From Verrucomicrobiaceae bacterium (GTDB lineage Bacteria > Verrucomicrobiota > Verrucomicrobiia > Opitutales > Intestinicryptomonadaceae), in the NCBI GenBank assembly GCA_015061955.1, contig SUVO01000002.1:62001-126000 (forward strand): a stretch of 64,000 bases of DNA, read 5' to 3'. The notes below the pieces were generated by a model that was not told where the DNA came from, searched no databases, and worked only from the letters and a program-made list of their open reading frames with translations. Made by a program: the position numbers and the translations under genes. Every line of letters begins with the position of its first letter. Within the stretch, counting starts at the first letter, position 1. This document shows positions 11,676 to 24,458 of the stretch, one piece after another.

Positions 11676-11726
11676 GTAGATTTCTTTTTGGTAGACTTCT
11701 TCCATTATAACGTAAAAAGGAGGTTT

Positions 11727-13685
11727 ATGAAAAAGTATCTTACTATATTATTATGTATGGTTGTTTCGTATGCATTTGCAGCAAAAAATGCTACAATTTT
11801 AACAACGTTTAAAGATAACACAACATCAACACACTCTATCGAGCTTAAAGAAGTTGAAAAGAATGTTTTTCGCTTAGAAATTCCAATTCGCAAAATTGCA
11901 CTCAATACAAAGTTTATTGATGTAAAGCTTGCCGATGCTACTGCCAAAAAAGGTGAAGATGGTTATTGGGTTTTAGGTGATGGCAGATTGGGTTATTTTG
12001 TTCACGACATGGGTAATATTACCGAACGTCGCAATCCGTTGCCATTGTATGGTGTAAAGAAGGGCGATAGCGCATTTGTTGGTATTGTTAAAGGTTTGAA
12101 GTACGAATTTGCTTCGGTTGTAGATGTAAAAAAAGGCGTGTACGAAGTTTATCCACGTTTTCTCATAAAAGATATGTTTTTTGCTCCGTACGAAGATTTG
12201 GTTGTAGATTTTTATTTCTTCAAGGGTGAAGATGCCAACTATTCTTCAATGGGTAAAGCGTATCGTAAATATCAGTTAGATAGAGGCGAAGTAAAGCCAT
12301 TGCGTGAGCGTGTAAAGGGCAATCCACAACTTGCATACACTGTCGATACAATGTTTGTACGTTTTTGTAATGGTAGAAAGGTTAATAGTTCTAAAATAGA
12401 ACATCAAACTCCAGAAAACGAACCTAAAGTTCGTGTTGAACGTTCTTTTGAACAGGTTAAAAATAATATTCTTAAATTAAAAGAACTTGGTGTTGATAAG
12501 GTTGAAGTTTGTTTGGTGGGTTGGAATAGCGGTGGTTTTGATGGTCGCTTTCCAACGCTTTTCCCAGCTGATGAAGCTTTTGGTGGCGAAGAAAAAATGG
12601 CAGAAGTTGTTGATACTGCTCATGAGTTGGGGTATCAGATTGTAACTCACGTTTGCAATACCGACTTCTATACGATATCTGACAGATTTGATTGGTACGA
12701 CATCGCAAAAACAAAAGACGGTTCGTATCATAAGCATGGTGTCTTGGCAGGTGGTAGAGCGTATTTCCCATGTTTCCAACAAGTTTACAACAAGTACATA
12801 GAAGACGATTTTAAAGGTTTGCGTGAACGTGGCTTCAAAGGTACTCACCATATCGATGTAACATCGTGTATTGTTCCATATCCATGTCATGATAAAAATC
12901 ACCCATGTAATCGTCAGCAGACAGCAGACTATATGAATAAAATTGGTGAACTCGCTGATAAAACCTTTGGTGGTTGGGGCAGTGAAGGTCCTTGCGACCA
13001 CGTTGCAAAAACTCTCGACTACGCTCTTTACGTATGGGCATATCCAGGTTGGGTAGGGCGTGCAACTCCACTAATGGACAGACTTGTTCCAATTTGGCAG
13101 ATTGCCTATCATGGAATTATTTTAAGTAATCCATACTATGCAACAATGGATTACAATTTCCCAAAGTCTACTCCTGCACAATTAAAGGCAAGAGCAGAAG
13201 CTGCTAAGAAAAAGGGCAAGCATTTTAGAGTTTTCTTGCCTCCAGTTATCTTGGAGGGTATTCCACTTCGTCGTTTAAAATTGTACGAATTTGGTGGACG
13301 CCCAACTTTCTATGGGTATATTCGCGATAACGATTTAACCCCAATTAAAGAAGCGTACGACGAATATCAACCTATGAAATATTTGCAGTACGAGTTTATG
13401 GACTTCCATGGTGAAATTGCTAAAGATGTTTTCATAACTAAGTATTCAGACGGTAGCGAAGTTGTTTCAAATTATTCAAAACAAGACTATCTCTACAAGG
13501 GGCAACCTGTAAAACCAATGGATTATCGTCTTTATAAACCAGAGGTAAAAAAGCCCGAAGTTAAAAAGACGGTAAAAACGCAATTAGCCCAAAAGTCAAA
13601 TGCTAAGAAACAGCAAACTCAAGCAGTTAAAGAACAAACTGCTTGGGAAAAATTCAAGGCATGGGTTAAATCTTTCAAAAAATAA
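11727..13685 (+). CDS. Exported glycoside hydrolase-like protein (GH101/GH129-like), copy 1
   Basis: 652 aa from the ATG at 11727, chosen over the in-frame ATG at 11688 because AAGGAGG sits just ahead of it and a clean signal peptide begins there (1-19, ends A-F-A). An N-terminal beta-sandwich (about 20-200) is followed by a TIM-barrel-like domain (about 235-560). I-D-V-T-S (Asp377) and W-G-S-E-G (Glu420) sit where GH101/GH129-type enzymes keep nucleophile and acid/base; between them is a Cys/His-rich loop (C381, C387, H388, C394). These families release alpha-linked GalNAc or galactosyl-GalNAc from mucin-type glycans; assignment is by pattern only. It ends in a Lys/Gln-rich tail (about 600-652) absent from its paralog 5 nt downstream. 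Confidence 0.6.
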   Translation: MKKYLTILLCMVVSYAFAAKNATILTTFKDNTTSTHSIELKEVEKNVFRLEIPIRKIALNTKFIDVKLADATAKKGEDGYWVLGDGRLGYFVHDMGNITERRNPLPLYGVKKGDSAFVGIVKGLKYEFASVVDVKKGVYEVYPRFLIKDMFFAPYEDLVVDFYFFKGEDANYSSMGKAYRKYQLDRGEVKPLRERVKGNPQLAYTVDTMFVRFCNGRKVNSSKIEHQTPENEPKVRVERSFEQVKNNILKLKELGVDKVEVCLVGWNSGGFDGRFPTLFPADEAFGGEEKMAEVVDTAHELGYQIVTHVCNTDFYTISDRFDWYDIAKTKDGSYHKHGVLAGGRAYFPCFQQVYNKYIEDDFKGLRERGFKGTHHIDVTSCIVPYPCHDKNHPCNRQQTADYMNKIGELADKTFGGWGSEGPCDHVAKTLDYALYVWAYPGWVGRATPLMDRLVPIWQIAYHGIILSNPYYATMDYNFPKSTPAQLKARAEAAKKKGKHFRVFLPPVILEGIPLRRLKLYEFGGRPTFYGYIRDNDLTPIKEAYDEYQPMKYLQYEFMDFHGEIAKDVFITKYSDGSEVVSNYSKQDYLYKGQPVKPMDYRLYKPEVKKPEVKKTVKTQLAQKSNAKKQQTQAVKEQTAWEKFKAWVKSFKK

Positions 13686-13690
13686 TCATT

Positions 13691-15454
13691 ATGAAAAAGA
13701 CATTAGCAATAATAAGTTCATTTGTTATCGCCTTTACAACATTTGCAGTTGAAAGGGTAGTTGTACGCACTGTTTACAACAGTGGTAAAATAGAGAGCAA
13801 AACAGTAAGCCTCGAAAAGCAAAAAGATGGTGCATATAGATTATCTATCCCAGTAGTCGAATTATCGAAAGATATAAACTTTATTGATGTTCATACCGAT
13901 GATGCTCAAGCTAAGAAAGGCGATGATGGCTATTGGGTACTTTCTGACGGGCGTTCTGGTAGATTTTATCGCACATACGGGCATCTTGTAGAACGTCGTA
14001 ATCCGATGCCATTGTATGGTGTAAAGAAGGGCGATAGTGCATTTGTTGGCATTGTAAAAGGTCTTAAGTACGAATTTGAAATGCATATCGATGTAGAAGA
14101 GGGCAATTATACTATCTATCCACGCTTTTTAATTAAGGGTATCGAATTTGCACCTTATGAAGATTTGATTGTAGACTTCTACAATTTCAAGGGCAAAGAT
14201 GCAAACTATTCTTCAATGGGCAAAGCGTATCGCAAGTATCAACTCGATAGGGGTGAAGTTCAGCCAATCAGCGAGCGTGTAAAGAAATATCCAACTTTGG
14301 CTTATACTGCCGACACTATGTTTGTACGCATTAAACATGGTAGTAAAGCTATGAGTAAAATTGAACATCAAACCGAAGAAAATGAACCCCCTTTGTATGC
14401 AAATTACACCTTTGACGATTTTATGAAAATTACACGCGATTTGAAATCGGCTGGTATTGATAAACTCGAAATGTGTTTTGTAGGCTGGAATCGTGGTGGT
14501 TTCGATGGTCGTTTCCCAGACTTGTTTCCAGTAGAGCCAAAATTTGGTGGCGAAGCAAAAATGCGTGAAGCTATAAAATTAGGGCAGAGCTTCGGTTATC
14601 AAATGGTTTGCCATGTTTGCAATACCGACTTTTACAGAATTGCAAAGCGTTTCGATGAATATGCAATATCTAAGCGTTTAGATGGCTCGTTGCGTCCGTA
14701 TGCACATATGGCAGGTGGTAGAGCTTACAATCCATGTTTCCAAGTGGTTTGTGATAGATATATTGACGACGACTACAAAGGTATGTCGGATTTAGGTTTG
14801 AAAGGTACACACCATATCGACGTAACATCGTGTATTGTTCCATATACTTGCCACGATAAAGCTCATCCATGTAATCGCCAGCAAACAGCAGATTATCAGA
14901 ATTTGATTGGTGAAAAATGCAGAAAATATTTTGGTGGTTTTGGTAGTGAAGGTCCATGCGATCACGTTGCAAAGACTCTCGACTACGCATTGTACGTTTG
15001 GGCGTATCCAAATTGGGTTGGTGGCGAAAATCCATTGGTAGATAGACTTGTTCCAATATGGCAAATTGCTTATCACGGAATTATTTTGAGTAATCCATAC
15101 TACTCTACTATCGACTACACTTACGATAATCCAAATAGAATTTGGTCTCCATATAAAACTTTACAAGACAAAACATATCGTCGTTTGAAAATGGCTGAAT
15201 TAAATGGACGACCTACGTTCTACTTTATAGATTACAAAGCCTTTGGTGTAAAACCAATAAAAGAAGCTTACGATGAATATCAACCAATGAAGCACTTGCA
15301 ATACGAATTTATCGACTTCCACGATGAAATTGCACCAGACGTGTTCATAACAAAGTTTTCAAATGGCGAATACATTATTACAAATTATACCGATTTCGAT
15401 TTCACCTATGATGGTAATGTAATAAGTGCAAAAAGCTATAAATTACTTAAATAA
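13691..15454 (+). CDS. Exported glycoside hydrolase-like protein (GH101/GH129-like), copy 2
   Basis: 587 aa, tandem paralog of the preceding gene, starting 5 nt after its stop. Signal peptide at 1-19. Long stretches match copy 1, for example Y-G-V-K-K-G-D-S-A-F-V-G-I-V-K-G-L-K-Y and G-K-A-Y-R-K-Y-Q-L-D, and the candidate catalytic Asp (H-H-I-D-V-T-S), Glu (G-S-E-G-P-C-D-H) and Cys/His loop (S-C-I-V-P-Y-x-C-H-D-K) are all kept, so both copies look functional. It lacks the basic C-terminal tail. The pair probably arose by duplication and may differ in linkage specificity or location. Followed by a strong bidirectional terminator. Family assignment tentative as for copy 1. Confidence 0.6.
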   Translation: MKKTLAIISSFVIAFTTFAVERVVVRTVYNSGKIESKTVSLEKQKDGAYRLSIPVVELSKDINFIDVHTDDAQAKKGDDGYWVLSDGRSGRFYRTYGHLVERRNPMPLYGVKKGDSAFVGIVKGLKYEFEMHIDVEEGNYTIYPRFLIKGIEFAPYEDLIVDFYNFKGKDANYSSMGKAYRKYQLDRGEVQPISERVKKYPTLAYTADTMFVRIKHGSKAMSKIEHQTEENEPPLYANYTFDDFMKITRDLKSAGIDKLEMCFVGWNRGGFDGRFPDLFPVEPKFGGEAKMREAIKLGQSFGYQMVCHVCNTDFYRIAKRFDEYAISKRLDGSLRPYAHMAGGRAYNPCFQVVCDRYIDDDYKGMSDLGLKGTHHIDVTSCIVPYTCHDKAHPCNRQQTADYQNLIGEKCRKYFGGFGSEGPCDHVAKTLDYALYVWAYPNWVGGENPLVDRLVPIWQIAYHGIILSNPYYSTIDYTYDNPNRIWSPYKTLQDKTYRRLKMAELNGRPTFYFIDYKAFGVKPIKEAYDEYQPMKHLQYEFIDFHDEIAPDVFITKFSNGEYIITNYTDFDFTYDGNVISAKSYKLLK

Positions 15455-15517: not shown

Positions 15518-16780
15518 TTATAAAGGTGGTATTTTTATACCTTTTCTAATAAATGTAGGTGTATCAATATCTATATTTTTATACTCGTTCTTTGGTGTGT
15601 TTTCAAACAAACCTCGTTCATCGAATTCCATCAAAATCTGTTCTTTTTTCTCAGATTGTTTAGGCTGAGGTTTTTCGGGTTTGAATTCTACTGGTTGTGT
15701 TGTTTCAACCGATTCGCTTTCGGGAACTAATTTTTTGTTTTCTTCCTCTGGATTTGGCAAAGGATCTTGGTCTATGATGTCTACAACAGATTCATCTTTT
15801 GAATTTGCTACAACTTCAGTTTGGCTTTTTGATATTTGTTCTGGTTCTGTTGGTTCTAAGTTTACAACTGGTTTTTCAACTGCTTTAGTGGCAATTGCTA
15901 ATATTTTAACATCGTTGCTTTCGTTAGACGAGCAAACCGAATAACTAATTTTATCTTCAACACTGAATGAGTCATGTGCAGTCTGCAACACGTGCTTTAT
16001 ATCTGCCATAGAAAACGATTTTGGACATTTTATGGCAACAAGCATATTTTCCGACTTTAAATCGCTTTCCATTGTAGGTGCATTCTTTATTTCTAAGAAC
16101 GCATTTTCTATATTTTGCAAAGTAGCGGTAGCACTTCCTGCAAAAACTTGGTGATGTGAAAAATCGTTCTTTAGAATAGATTCATCTATTTTTAAGAATG
16201 CTTTAGCAGACAATCCCGATGCTATCAATTCTACTATTTGCGCTACTTTTTTATTTGCCGATTTGTATGCACTTTCTATGTCTTCATTAGAATTTGCTAA
16301 CAATACATCGTTTTGCAACGATATTGCAATGGTGGATTTCTCTTTTAGGAATGCAAAACTATTTTTTGATAATTGCTTTTTTGTTTTACCTTCTAAATCC
16401 ATTGGTAGGGCCGTTATCGAGAAAATGGTAGTTGTGTTATCGGCAATTTTTGCAAGTATTGGTGCTATCATAGTTGCAGTTCCACCACCTAAACCACCCA
16501 ATATTACCAAGGTTTTTGCGTTGTTAACAACTTTTGTTAAGTAGTTTATATTTTGAACAGCAATAGTTTTTGCTACGTTTGTATCACCACCTGTACCCGA
16601 TGTATTAGAATTGCTCTTTAATGGAAGTTTTTTTTCAACTGAAGCATTTTTTACGCATTCTATATCGGTATCAATTGCAACACAAACAACATTGCTTATG
16701 TTCAACGCTTGTACTTCTTCAAGCATTCTTATTCCAGCCGAGCCAATACCAACAACTCTTATTTTATTTTCAACTGCCAT
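15518..16780 (-). CDS. ftsZ: Divergent cell division GTPase FtsZ
   Basis: Tubulin-like protein that forms the division ring; 420 aa, last gene of the dcw cluster, 14 nt after ftsA. The N-terminal G-box V-V-G-I-G-S-A-G (9-16) and the overall FtsZ plan are recognisable, but the tubulin signature, normally G-G-G-T-G-[ST]-G, reads G-G-G-T-A-T-M (98-104), and the T7 loop, normally N-x-D-F-A-D-V, reads K-I-D-E-S-I-L (197-203), losing the second catalytic Asp. A long acidic, Pro/Gln-rich linker (about 300-390) leads to a C-terminal peptide D-T-P-T-F-I-R-K, a good match to the conserved FtsA-binding tail. Position and tail make FtsZ the best call; GTPase activity may be altered. Confidence 0.88.
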   Translation of the reverse strand: MAVENKIRVVGIGSAGIRMLEEVQALNISNVVCVAIDTDIECVKNASVEKKLPLKSNSNTSGTGGDTNVAKTIAVQNINYLTKVVNNAKTLVILGGLGGGTATMIAPILAKIADNTTTIFSITALPMDLEGKTKKQLSKNSFAFLKEKSTIAISLQNDVLLANSNEDIESAYKSANKKVAQIVELIASGLSAKAFLKIDESILKNDFSHHQVFAGSATATLQNIENAFLEIKNAPTMESDLKSENMLVAIKCPKSFSMADIKHVLQTAHDSFSVEDKISYSVCSSNESNDVKILAIATKAVEKPVVNLEPTEPEQISKSQTEVVANSKDESVVDIIDQDPLPNPEEENKKLVPESESVETTQPVEFKPEKPQPKQSEKKEQILMEFDERGLFENTPKNEYKNIDIDTPTFIRKGIKIPPL

Positions 16781-16794
16781 TTTTCAAAATTCCA

Positions 16795-17973
16795 TTAGAA
16801 AAGCAAAAATCTACGTTTGCGATTTTTAGCTTTATTTTTTTGCTTTTGTGATTTTACATGTTCAAGCATCCCCAAGAGCGTTGCCCAACTTTGTTTTCTT
16901 ACATTTTTTGGTAAATCTTCCGAGAAACAACCTTTAGAACATGGTATACCAAATATCCTTTCAGCTAATTCGCATATTCCAACGGTATTCGATACGCCAC
17001 CAGTAATTACAACTTCTTTAATTTTATTCAAATATTCTGATGTTTCTTCGCGCAAAATTTCAAGTATTTCGACAACTCGAGAGTACACTATTTTATTTAC
17101 AGAATCGGCTAAGATTTTTTTATCACCTATTTGCTTGTCGCCAATAGCCCAATATATTTTTGATTTCTCTTCTTCGCTGAGGAATAATTTTCCACTTGTA
17201 ATTTTTACGCTTTCGGCAGTTTTAGGTGTTAGATGTAAGCCGAGTGCTAAGTCGTTTGTAACGTGGTTTCCACCGAGTGGAATAATGCCAGCATGAATGT
17301 ATGTATTGTTTTTAATTATGGCGTAATCAGTAGTTCCTGCACCAATATCAACAACTAAAACACCATCGGCTTTTTGTTGTGCCGATGTAACTGCACGTGC
17401 CGATGCAATCCCAGAAATTACCATATCTTCAAGCTCAATACCAGTACTATGGATAATATTTATAATTTCTAAAATACGTTCGTTTTCGCCATGAATCATC
17501 AAGTATTCTACATCGGTAACTTTACCAATTTTCCCGACTGGATTTGCACACAAATTAGCATCGAGATAATATGCACTGCGAACTTGTTGAATATAACTTC
17601 TGCCTTCATCAAGTTCTTTTTCTCTTATTTGTTTTTTAGCAGTTTCAACATCGGAAGCACGCACCACACCGTTAGCAGCCGATGTTTTTACTGATGTTAG
17701 ATATTTGAAAACCTTGATATGCGTACCCGACAAAGCCATCGATATTTTATTGAGCTTTACTGACGCTTTATTTTCAGCATTTCTTATTGCCTCATGTGTT
17801 TTTTCGTAGGTTTTTACAACGTTTATTACATCGCCTTTCTTTATAGACAATCCGGAGTCTATCATACTTTGGGATATGATATTGATTTTTTCATCATCTA
17901 CAATTTCGGCGATTAGAACCTTTATTTTTGAGGTCCCCCATTCGAGTACTGCTACTGTTTTACTGTCGCTCAT
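16795..17973 (-). CDS. ftsA: Cell division protein FtsA
   Basis: Actin-fold ATPase that anchors FtsZ filaments to the membrane. 392 aa. Visible: phosphate-1 loop L-E-W-G-T-S-K (10-16), the 1C subdomain region (about 80-165), phosphate-2 V-V-D-I-G-A-G-T-T-D (about 206-215), and V-V-I-T-G-G-V-S-N (about 327-335). The extreme C-terminus is strongly basic and ends in R-R-F-L-L-F, a plausible amphipathic membrane-targeting helix. Overlaps ftsQ by 4 nt and precedes ftsZ by 14 nt, the standard Q-A-Z order. Confidence 0.94.
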   Translation of the reverse strand: MSDSKTVAVLEWGTSKIKVLIAEIVDDEKINIISQSMIDSGLSIKKGDVINVVKTYEKTHEAIRNAENKASVKLNKISMALSGTHIKVFKYLTSVKTSAANGVVRASDVETAKKQIREKELDEGRSYIQQVRSAYYLDANLCANPVGKIGKVTDVEYLMIHGENERILEIINIIHSTGIELEDMVISGIASARAVTSAQQKADGVLVVDIGAGTTDYAIIKNNTYIHAGIIPLGGNHVTNDLALGLHLTPKTAESVKITSGKLFLSEEEKSKIYWAIGDKQIGDKKILADSVNKIVYSRVVEILEILREETSEYLNKIKEVVITGGVSNTVGICELAERIFGIPCSKGCFSEDLPKNVRKQSWATLLGMLEHVKSQKQKNKAKNRKRRFLLF

Positions 17974-18878
17974 TTTTGTTTTGTTTTTAGTTTTACATCG
18001 GCGCGTTCTTTCAGCGACAAATCTATTTGCTTTATATCTTGAATATTATTTTCTTTTGAATATTTCAAAACATATTCAAGACGATCAAATTGTTTTTTGT
18101 AATCCTTAGGAGCAAAGATTATTTTTACATCATTTTCTGTTGATGCCACTAAGATTGGTGCAACACTTTCAAGGTCTCTTATATTTATGCTTTTCCATTT
18201 TTGCATTGGCATTCTCGATTGCGAGTAAGCCAAAAATTCAACGATTTTCGGAGCGCATTTTAATTCTTGAGGTGTTCTTCCATTGAAATTTAGCTGATAT
18301 CCTGTAATTAAAGGCATATCTTTTACATATGTTTCGTTCATGCAAATAGGTTCGTAAAATACACCTTCTGGCGAAACTATATAAAGAATTGTACGCATAT
18401 CTATTTGTGTTATAGCTTTTGCCATTGGTCGATGTTCCGACACTGTTATTCTGAGTTTATCAGGATATACACGTTCTACTGTTGCCTTTTTTATTTGCGT
18501 AAGATTTTCGAGCGCATTTTTTATTGCGAATATATCAGCTTCGGCAAGCGTTTTATTGCGTGATAACAGATCTTTGTAGTGAACGTAGCTACCAATCCAT
18601 TTAGATGTTATTACACCATCGGTTTTAAATTCTATGTGTTTTATTTTTTCGCTATCTGTTCCTATAATGTCATCGAAAAACGATGTTGAATACAAAACAT
18701 AAACTGTGTAGCACAATGCACCAAATAGTGCCAACATTACAAAGAATTTTAACTTTTGCAAAAATATACGTATACTAGCACCCACTGTGACGGTCTTGGG
18801 CTTTTTCTTGTTTGGACCGTCAACTAAAGCGCGCCAATCGCTACGCGATGGAGTTTTTTTGTTTCTTTTTACTGGCAT
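17970..18878 (-). CDS. ftsQ: Cell division protein FtsQ (POTRA domain)
   Basis: Bitopic division protein linking early and late divisome components. 302 aa: a basic cytoplasmic N-terminus (1-45), one membrane helix (about 46-67), and a periplasmic part with a POTRA-like segment (about 80-150, ending V-E-R-V-Y-P-D-K-L-R-I-T-V-S-E-H-R-P, a typical FtsQ signature) followed by the FtsQ beta domain. Overlaps ddl by 10 nt and ftsA by 4 nt, so translation is probably coupled. Confidence 0.9.
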   Translation of the reverse strand: MPVKRNKKTPSRSDWRALVDGPNKKKPKTVTVGASIRIFLQKLKFFVMLALFGALCYTVYVLYSTSFFDDIIGTDSEKIKHIEFKTDGVITSKWIGSYVHYKDLLSRNKTLAEADIFAIKNALENLTQIKKATVERVYPDKLRITVSEHRPMAKAITQIDMRTILYIVSPEGVFYEPICMNETYVKDMPLITGYQLNFNGRTPQELKCAPKIVEFLAYSQSRMPMQKWKSINIRDLESVAPILVASTENDVKIIFAPKDYKKQFDRLEYVLKYSKENNIQDIKQIDLSLKERADVKLKTKQK

Positions 18879-23288: not shown

Positions 23289-24458
23289 CTACAATTGTAT
23301 TACAGGAACTTGTTGTGCTTCGTTAGTATTCTGCTTTGGTTCTACAACTGGTTGTTGTGGTTTTTCAGGTTCTATTACAGGGGCTTTGGGTTGTTCAACT
23401 TTTGGTTGCTCTACAACTTGCTGAGCTTCAACTTTTGGTTGTTCAACCTTAGGTTGTTCTGTTTTAGTTTGTTCAACTTTTGTTTCTGGTTTAACTGTAG
23501 TCGCATCTTTTGCAACTGATGTTGTTTTTGATACTGGAATTATGAGAGTTTGTCCTGCACGAAGTTTGCGAGGATCTGTAATATTGTTGCGTTTTTTAAT
23601 ATCGGAAATCTTTACCTTATATTTTGATGCAATCAATCCAAGAAATTCTCCTGCTTTTACTTTGTGCGAAATTTCTCCATTTGTTGCTGGTGCTGTTTTT
23701 TCTGTCTTAGGTGCCGAAGCTTGTGCTTTTTTTGCTTTTTCTGCACCTGACTTTGTAATATTGAGCTTTTGACCAATTCTGATATTTGCTTTTTTTAGAT
23801 TGTTTATTTGCATCAACTGAGCTACCGACATACCATTTTGATATGCAATCTTCGAAAGTGAATCACCCTTCTTTACAACGTATACAACGAGTTCTTCGCT
23901 CACTTGTACTGTTTGCATTTCTTGTGGTGCTACTTCTACTGGTTCAGCACTTTCTGATGGAATTTTTAATTTTTGACCAACTTTTATTGAATTTGCGTTT
24001 TTGATAGAATTCAATGCAAGAATTTCCGAAGACTTTACTCTGTACTTCGATGCTATTTTTGATACAGAATCACCCTTCTTTACAACATATTCTACTGTGT
24101 TTACAGTTGCTTTTTCTGAAGTAGTATTTTTATCTTTAGCAATTGGAGCTATTGGTTCGTCGTTGATTTTCTCTTTTTTGATAGGTTCATCTACTATTGT
24201 ATTTTGAACATCAACTAAAGGATTTTCTGGCTTTGTAGGTTGTGCTCGCAAAAGAGGATCACCTTCTTTTATTTTAGTTTCGACAGGTTCGGCAACTACA
24301 TTTTGATCTGTTTTAATTGTTGTAACTTCTTCTACCGAAGTCGATGCCTTGGGGGGCTGTTGCTCTTCTGTTGAATTGCATCCTGCTTGGATAAGCAAAA
24401 TACCGATTACTGCGGCGTGAACTGCCACTATTGTTGTTAATGCTACTGATTTTTTCAT
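23289..24458 (-). CDS. LysM-repeat lipoprotein inside the dcw cluster
   Basis: 389 aa. Residues 1-27 form a signal ending in a lipobox-like L-I-Q-A-G-C (Cys27), predicting a lipoprotein. Three LysM peptidoglycan-binding modules lie at about 123-167, 192-235 and 264-308, separated by Pro/Glu/Lys linkers; the last about 80 residues are a low-complexity tail of K-V-E-Q-P repeats. No catalytic domain is visible, so this is a binding protein rather than a hydrolase. Placed between murD and ftsW with zero bases to ftsW, it probably helps connect the divisome or outer membrane to septal peptidoglycan. That role is inference. Confidence 0.85.
   Translation of the reverse strand: MKKSVALTTIVAVHAAVIGILLIQAGCNSTEEQQPPKASTSVEEVTTIKTDQNVVAEPVETKIKEGDPLLRAQPTKPENPLVDVQNTIVDEPIKKEKINDEPIAPIAKDKNTTSEKATVNTVEYVVKKGDSVSKIASKYRVKSSEILALNSIKNANSIKVGQKLKIPSESAEPVEVAPQEMQTVQVSEELVVYVVKKGDSLSKIAYQNGMSVAQLMQINNLKKANIRIGQKLNITKSGAEKAKKAQASAPKTEKTAPATNGEISHKVKAGEFLGLIASKYKVKISDIKKRNNITDPRKLRAGQTLIIPVSKTTSVAKDATTVKPETKVEQTKTEQPKVEQPKVEAQQVVEQPKVEQPKAPVIEPEKPQQPVVEPKQNTNEAQQVPVIQL

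Follow-up and report, generated by a model that had tools for sequence, protein, structure and literature searches.

The ftsZ gene of the window, as we call the 64,000-nucleotide stretch of DNA analyzed here, encodes a protein that is an FtsZ by descent, fold, and position while departing from the family in two active-site motifs, the tubulin signature and the T7 (synergy) loop. We put the probability at roughly 60% that this protein is the true and sole FtsZ of its host, vertically inherited, complete in fold, and tethered by FtsA, and that it acts, most likely, as a GTP-binding protein that forms the Z ring but hydrolyzes GTP slowly and so has a slow turnover. The divergence of such proteins was known before, but in the literature searched (most subscription papers lay outside the search) we found neither a report of Verrucomicrobiota naturally lacking a T7 aspartate nor any biochemistry of an Opitutales FtsZ.

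The gene occupies positions 15518..16780 on the minus strand, which the preliminary description had not given, and encodes 420 aa. It is the final gene of an intact dcw cluster that spans 33810 down to 15518 in the order mraZ-rsmH-ftsL-ftsI-murE-murF-mraY-murD-LysM-ftsW-murG-murC-ddl-ftsQ-ftsA-ftsZ, and its placement in the dcw position was thus correct. The upstream ftsA (16795..17973, minus strand) is canonical (TIGR01174, 224.6 bits versus a cut-off of 175.85) and presumably supplies the membrane tether and partner of FtsZ; it is preceded by ftsQ (17970..18878, minus strand), with its POTRA domain (PF08478). Judging from named relatives, the genus belongs to Opitutales (Verrucomicrobiota) and not to Lentisphaerota. 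Between murD and ftsW, inside the cluster, lies a gene (23289-24458) for a protein with LysM repeats and a start resembling that of a lipoprotein, and a relative of this protein was seen at the same murD/ftsW place in reduced Opitutales genomes. Convergent with ftsZ, positions 11688-15454 encode two similar, apparently secreted proteins in tandem (665 and 587 aa).

The assignment of the product draws on PF00091, TIGR00065, and matches of the AlphaFold model to structures in the PDB. The Tubulin/FtsZ GTPase domain was the sole Pfam domain matched (PF00091, 63.9 bits versus a cut-off of 33), and the score against NCBIfam TIGR00065 fell below the equivalog cut-off (94.3 versus 295.2 bits). That cut-off was reached in just 14 of the 145 Verrucomicrobiota genomes of the phylum sample, and naming by it alone would overlook most FtsZs of the phylum. 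In the AlphaFold model, which was built with 64 relatives in the alignment, the mean pLDDT was at least 90 in nearly all 10-residue blocks of residues 11-300, the T6-H7 region was present with helix H7 (168-190) modeled confidently, and the best matches among solved structures were FtsZs. Comparison with B. subtilis FtsZ (2vxy) by VIA-align gave a Z of 35.5 at 2.5 Å over 298 residues (4-301) with 20% identity. The protein is predicted to have the complete two-domain FtsZ fold, including the C-terminal domain that was missed by Pfam.

Residues 301-420 were modeled as a disordered linker followed by a conserved tail. The acidic linker (residues ~302-402; 15575..15877, minus strand; pLDDT mostly 44 to 70) contains 25 D/E and 13 K/R. 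The preliminary description had called it long, but at ~100 residues it is not unusual compared with a range of 102 to 211 in the genus and a median of 87 in other Opitutales. The clear C-terminal peptide noted there was borne out: DIDTPTFIRKGIK (residues 404-416; 15533..15571, minus strand) is of the FtsA/ZipA type and is conserved across nearly the whole phylum.

Active-site residues were mapped by alignment to E. coli FtsZ (L300, used for residue numbering only). Translation gave GGGTATM as the tubulin signature (T4, residues 98-104; 16469..16489, minus strand) and KIDESIL, without the second acid, as the T7 loop (residues 197-203; 16172..16192, minus strand), both exactly as first described. 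The signature carries G109A and a final Gly replaced by Met104 and does not match the PROSITE PS00227 pattern [SAG]GGTG[SAT]G as quoted in PMC1845146; the T7 loop keeps D209 and reads K-I-D-E-S-I in place of the triad N-x-D-x-x-D. The changes relative to E. coli are N24R, N43D, Q47E, G109A, R142K, N207K, F210E, and D212I, among which N24R, N43D, Q47E, R142K, and chiefly N207K were absent from the preliminary description. N24R is R18 of the T1 loop GIGSAGIRML (residues 11-20; 16721..16750, minus strand) and is common to the nearest relative, G009. R142K (R143 in S. aureus) lies in T5, E130-G131-K132-T133-K134 (16379..16393, minus strand), where the ribose-contact Glu is kept. Retained are D45, G71, G105-G107, T108, T110, P134, E138, G139, N165, D166, and D209. 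The intact G105 is the site of the ftsZ84 change (G105S), with which GTPase activity is ~15-fold lower under standard conditions (PMC4603965). Sequencing error, chance, and a pseudogene were rejected as origins of the altered motifs, as G009 has GGGTASI and QIDAGAF and all 12 genus members lose the final Gly; the pseudogene reading is also ruled out by purifying selection and the confident predicted fold.

The protein had been presented as an isolated broken FtsZ, which it is not: the loss of D212 spans most Opitutales, the whole genus has an altered signature, and similar losses in T7 occur across the phylum. D or E was missing at position 212 in 60 of the 66 Opitutales FtsZs (present in 6), with T in 28, S in 14 (S/T in 42), A in 8, H in 4, and others in the remainder, and no sampled member had an acid there in 18 of the 22 families. 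D209 was retained in 61 of the 66. The cultured Cerasicoccus frondis, C. maritimus, and C. arenae (NLDFAM) and Geminisphaera colitermitum TAV2 (NLDFAT) also have T7 loops of the Opitutales type. This order-wide N-x-D-x-x-S/T state appears to be an alternative active site that has become established. The core of the G009 protein is 46% identical to that of the window, and the two share N24R, G109A, K/Q at 207, and I/A at 212; at the level of sequence, this pair has moved one step beyond the order-wide T7 state at positions 207 and 212. G109A was also found in three other genus members, and the final Gly of the signature is replaced by M, V, I, or E across the 12.

The reverse half-loss is seen in the other orders of the class, where 8 of 9 sampled FtsZs keep the acid at 212 and lack D209, and records named Limisphaerales, Spartobacteria, and Chthoniobacter are of this type too. 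The full N-D-D triad was present in just 8 of 114 sampled Verrucomicrobiota FtsZs, counts outside Opitutales being approximate, as the alignment is less secure there. The GTP loops of FtsZ were strongly altered in families f4, f30, f42, f43, and f52 of the phylum sample. We tentatively propose, at somewhat less than even odds, that the whole phylum Verrucomicrobiota relies for division on FtsZ filaments in which the GTPase site between subunits has been taken apart along two opposite routes (N207 and D209 kept and D212 lost in Opitutales; the acid at 212 kept and N207 and D209 lost in most other sampled Verrucomicrobiia), that the Z ring rests on weak or differently catalyzed hydrolysis, and that some reduced Opitutales families then lost FtsZ and FtsA. 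The prevailing view is that treadmilling of FtsZ, powered by GTP hydrolysis, organizes the synthesis of the septal wall, and that the T7 residues are universal. A large group, part of it in culture, in which the sole FtsZ is missing T7 residues offers a direct way to ask whether division needs hydrolysis, whether other chemistry can take its place, and how FtsZ-based division gives way to an FtsZ-free mode, a question of the PVC superphylum. Because most relatives of the window protein are missing one or another of the residues that it has lost, an unusual division ring with slow turnover may be common to the group as a whole.

The proposed working of the window protein draws on residue functions established in model species. 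In S. aureus FtsZ (numbered as E. coli +1), the active site at the subunit interface is made up of D46, Q48, R143, N208, D210, and D213; the water, framed by D213 and R143, is positioned by a swing of D210, and K+ is coordinated by N208 (PMC8936486). GTP binding probably persists in the window FtsZ, because the T3/T4 phosphate-loop core (GGGT), D45, E138, and N165-D166 remain. Hydrolysis would be weak, since the T7 loop inserted over the GTP by the neighboring subunit keeps only the attacking D209, with D212 and the K+-coordinating N207 lost and the arginine finger-like R142 replaced by Lys; Lys197 (position 207) might replace the K+ ion, although this is speculation. Filaments would therefore be stable, with ring remodeling slow or dependent on partners, and FtsA would tether them via the intact C-terminal tail. 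From these residues, slow hydrolysis is a reasonable prediction, and weak nucleotide binding, another possibility raised in the preliminary description, seems less likely, given that the contacts to guanine, ribose, and phosphate are mostly kept. E. coli D212A has a greatly lowered GTPase activity, and B. subtilis expressing D213A in a merodiploid forms thick stable rings with constriction still occurring (PMC8079713). S. aureus R143K and Q48A retain assembly with reduced GTPase activity, and D213N and N208L do not assemble (PMC8936486). By analogy with the latter two, the window protein might fail to assemble into filaments of the ordinary kind.

The evolutionary record of the gene combines rapid divergence with constraint. 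In most bacteria, FtsZ evolves more slowly than FtsA. Here, the FtsZ core was less conserved than FtsA in 78 of 78 family pairs (mean identity, 35.3% versus 53.9%). FtsZ is often the faster of the two elsewhere in the phylum as well, but to a smaller degree: at an FtsA identity of 60 to 75%, the FtsZ core averages 41% in the window family and 53% elsewhere. The ftsZ genes are under purifying selection, as seen in close pairs, with a dN/dS of ~0.04 for the pair G001-G002 and ~0.02 for a pair of f4 FtsZs whose loops are heavily altered; the differences between the window gene and that of G009 by codon position were 0.41/0.28/0.73. The window FtsZ was sister to that of G009 with full support, and its placement among the other members of the genus had modest support, in a tree whose deeper branches are weak and whose long rows are possibly misplaced.

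These observations bear on three other readings. It is possible, although we think it rather unlikely, that D209 and the Ser/Thr (in the window protein, E200/K197) order the catalytic water by alternative chemistry, with an ordinary GTPase rate and normal treadmilling. The Ser/Thr at 212 in Opitutales is conserved rather than random, the attacking D209 is kept, and ftsZ is under purifying selection, all of which fit this idea; the window and G009 proteins, however, have lost the Ser/Thr too (I and A) and carry K/Q in place of N207, and mutants of model species show that D212 matters greatly (PMC8936486, PMC8079713). In the window protein, E200 beside D199 could act as the second acid via a shifted register, giving normal hydrolysis, and the loss of D212 may be well compensated, with normal turnover, since cultured Opitutales with an equal loss grow and divide. 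Less probable still is decay, in which FtsZ is losing importance, the gene is being lost, and division is shifting to an FtsZ-independent mode. The low conservation of FtsZ relative to FtsA and the apparent absence of both proteins from small-genome Opitutales families that retain FtsW and RodA would be expected under decay, but the intact frame, confidently predicted fold, conserved tail, and low dN/dS in close pairs would not, and neither would the full dcw cluster with its canonical FtsA.

The third reading, a repurposed paralogue or FtsZ-like protein with the true FtsZ hidden in the 7% of the genome absent from the assembly, is very improbable. The dcw position beside ftsA and the C-terminal peptide speak against it, and in the window genome (2.43 Mb, 93% complete) the dcw ftsZ was the single PF00091/TIGR00065 gene. 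Searches with tubulin-wide and FtsZ profiles detected no credible second FtsZ or tubulin gene there, the remaining matches being short (E, 0.02 to 0.08), and the second canonical ftsZ that the preliminary description had proposed looking for was thus not found. Likewise, no second credible FtsZ was found in any readable relative of the window family, including genomes that are 95 to 97% complete. In the Opitutales genome G084 (f21), a second FtsZ of 661 aa (L143, contig C5) was present beside an Opitutales-type copy; its T7 loop, GLINVGLDDL, resembles those of other orders of the class, and contamination and transfer are both possible. FtsZ loss within the genus was also considered for G006 and G008, which appeared to lack FtsZ, FtsA, and the dcw FtsW, but both cases were dropped: both of the G008 stretches sampled were all N, and none of the dcw genes sought appear in G006.

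Several known systems offer partial parallels. The beta-tubulin T7 loop that faces the nonhydrolyzed GTP of alpha-tubulin keeps N-x-D and, like that of the window FtsZ, is missing the second acid; however, tubulin is a heterodimer with a single such interface, whereas a homopolymer of the window protein would lack the acid at every interface. With the canonical FtsZs of E. coli, S. aureus, and B. subtilis, the protein shares the whole fold, C-terminal domain, disordered linker, tail, and dcw place by ftsA, as well as the T3/T4 core, D45, E138, N165, and D209; it differs from them in N24R, N43D, Q47E, G109A, the final Gly to Met, R142K, N207K, and D212I, in its identity of ~20%, and in its score far under the NCBIfam cut-off. 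Verrucomicrobial FtsZ was described as divergent as early as 2007, with an uncommon Ser in the signature (PMC1845146), and ftsZ is essential in vivo in Verrucomicrobium spinosum (PMC12283558). The V. spinosum FtsZ is likewise divergent, of the same phylum, and encoded in a dcw cluster (PMC1845146, PMC12283558), but according to these papers (it was outside our alignment) it keeps the full GGGTGSG signature. FtsZl1 and FtsZl2 (PMC2875224) are also divergent members of the FtsZ-tubulin superfamily but have a different gene context; FtsZl1 is defined by a vWA/OmpA operon and an unrecognizable T6-H7 region, in contrast to the dcw context and confidently modeled H7 found here. "Ca. Thiosymbion oneisti" has a natural FtsZ with reported low GTPase activity (PMC8953583); it is gammaproteobacterial, and the likeness is in reported GTPase activity only, T7 residues aside.

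FtsZ was not found in 12 reduced Opitutales genomes of 0.8 to 1.0 Mb (G024, G042, G046, G051, G059, G060, G074, G076, G089, G091, G100, and G101; families f7 and f25-f28; loci L305 and L317-L325), which are 89 to 95% complete and have some masked contigs (the C1 stretch of G046 consists solely of N), and FtsA was not found in any of them except G074. These results point to FtsZ-less Verrucomicrobiota. Every reduced genome has two FtsW/RodA genes and most have an MreB-like match. In several of them, the dcw cluster has come apart around murD-LysM-ftsW, and in G074 an alaS-like gene, not ftsZ, adjoins ftsA.
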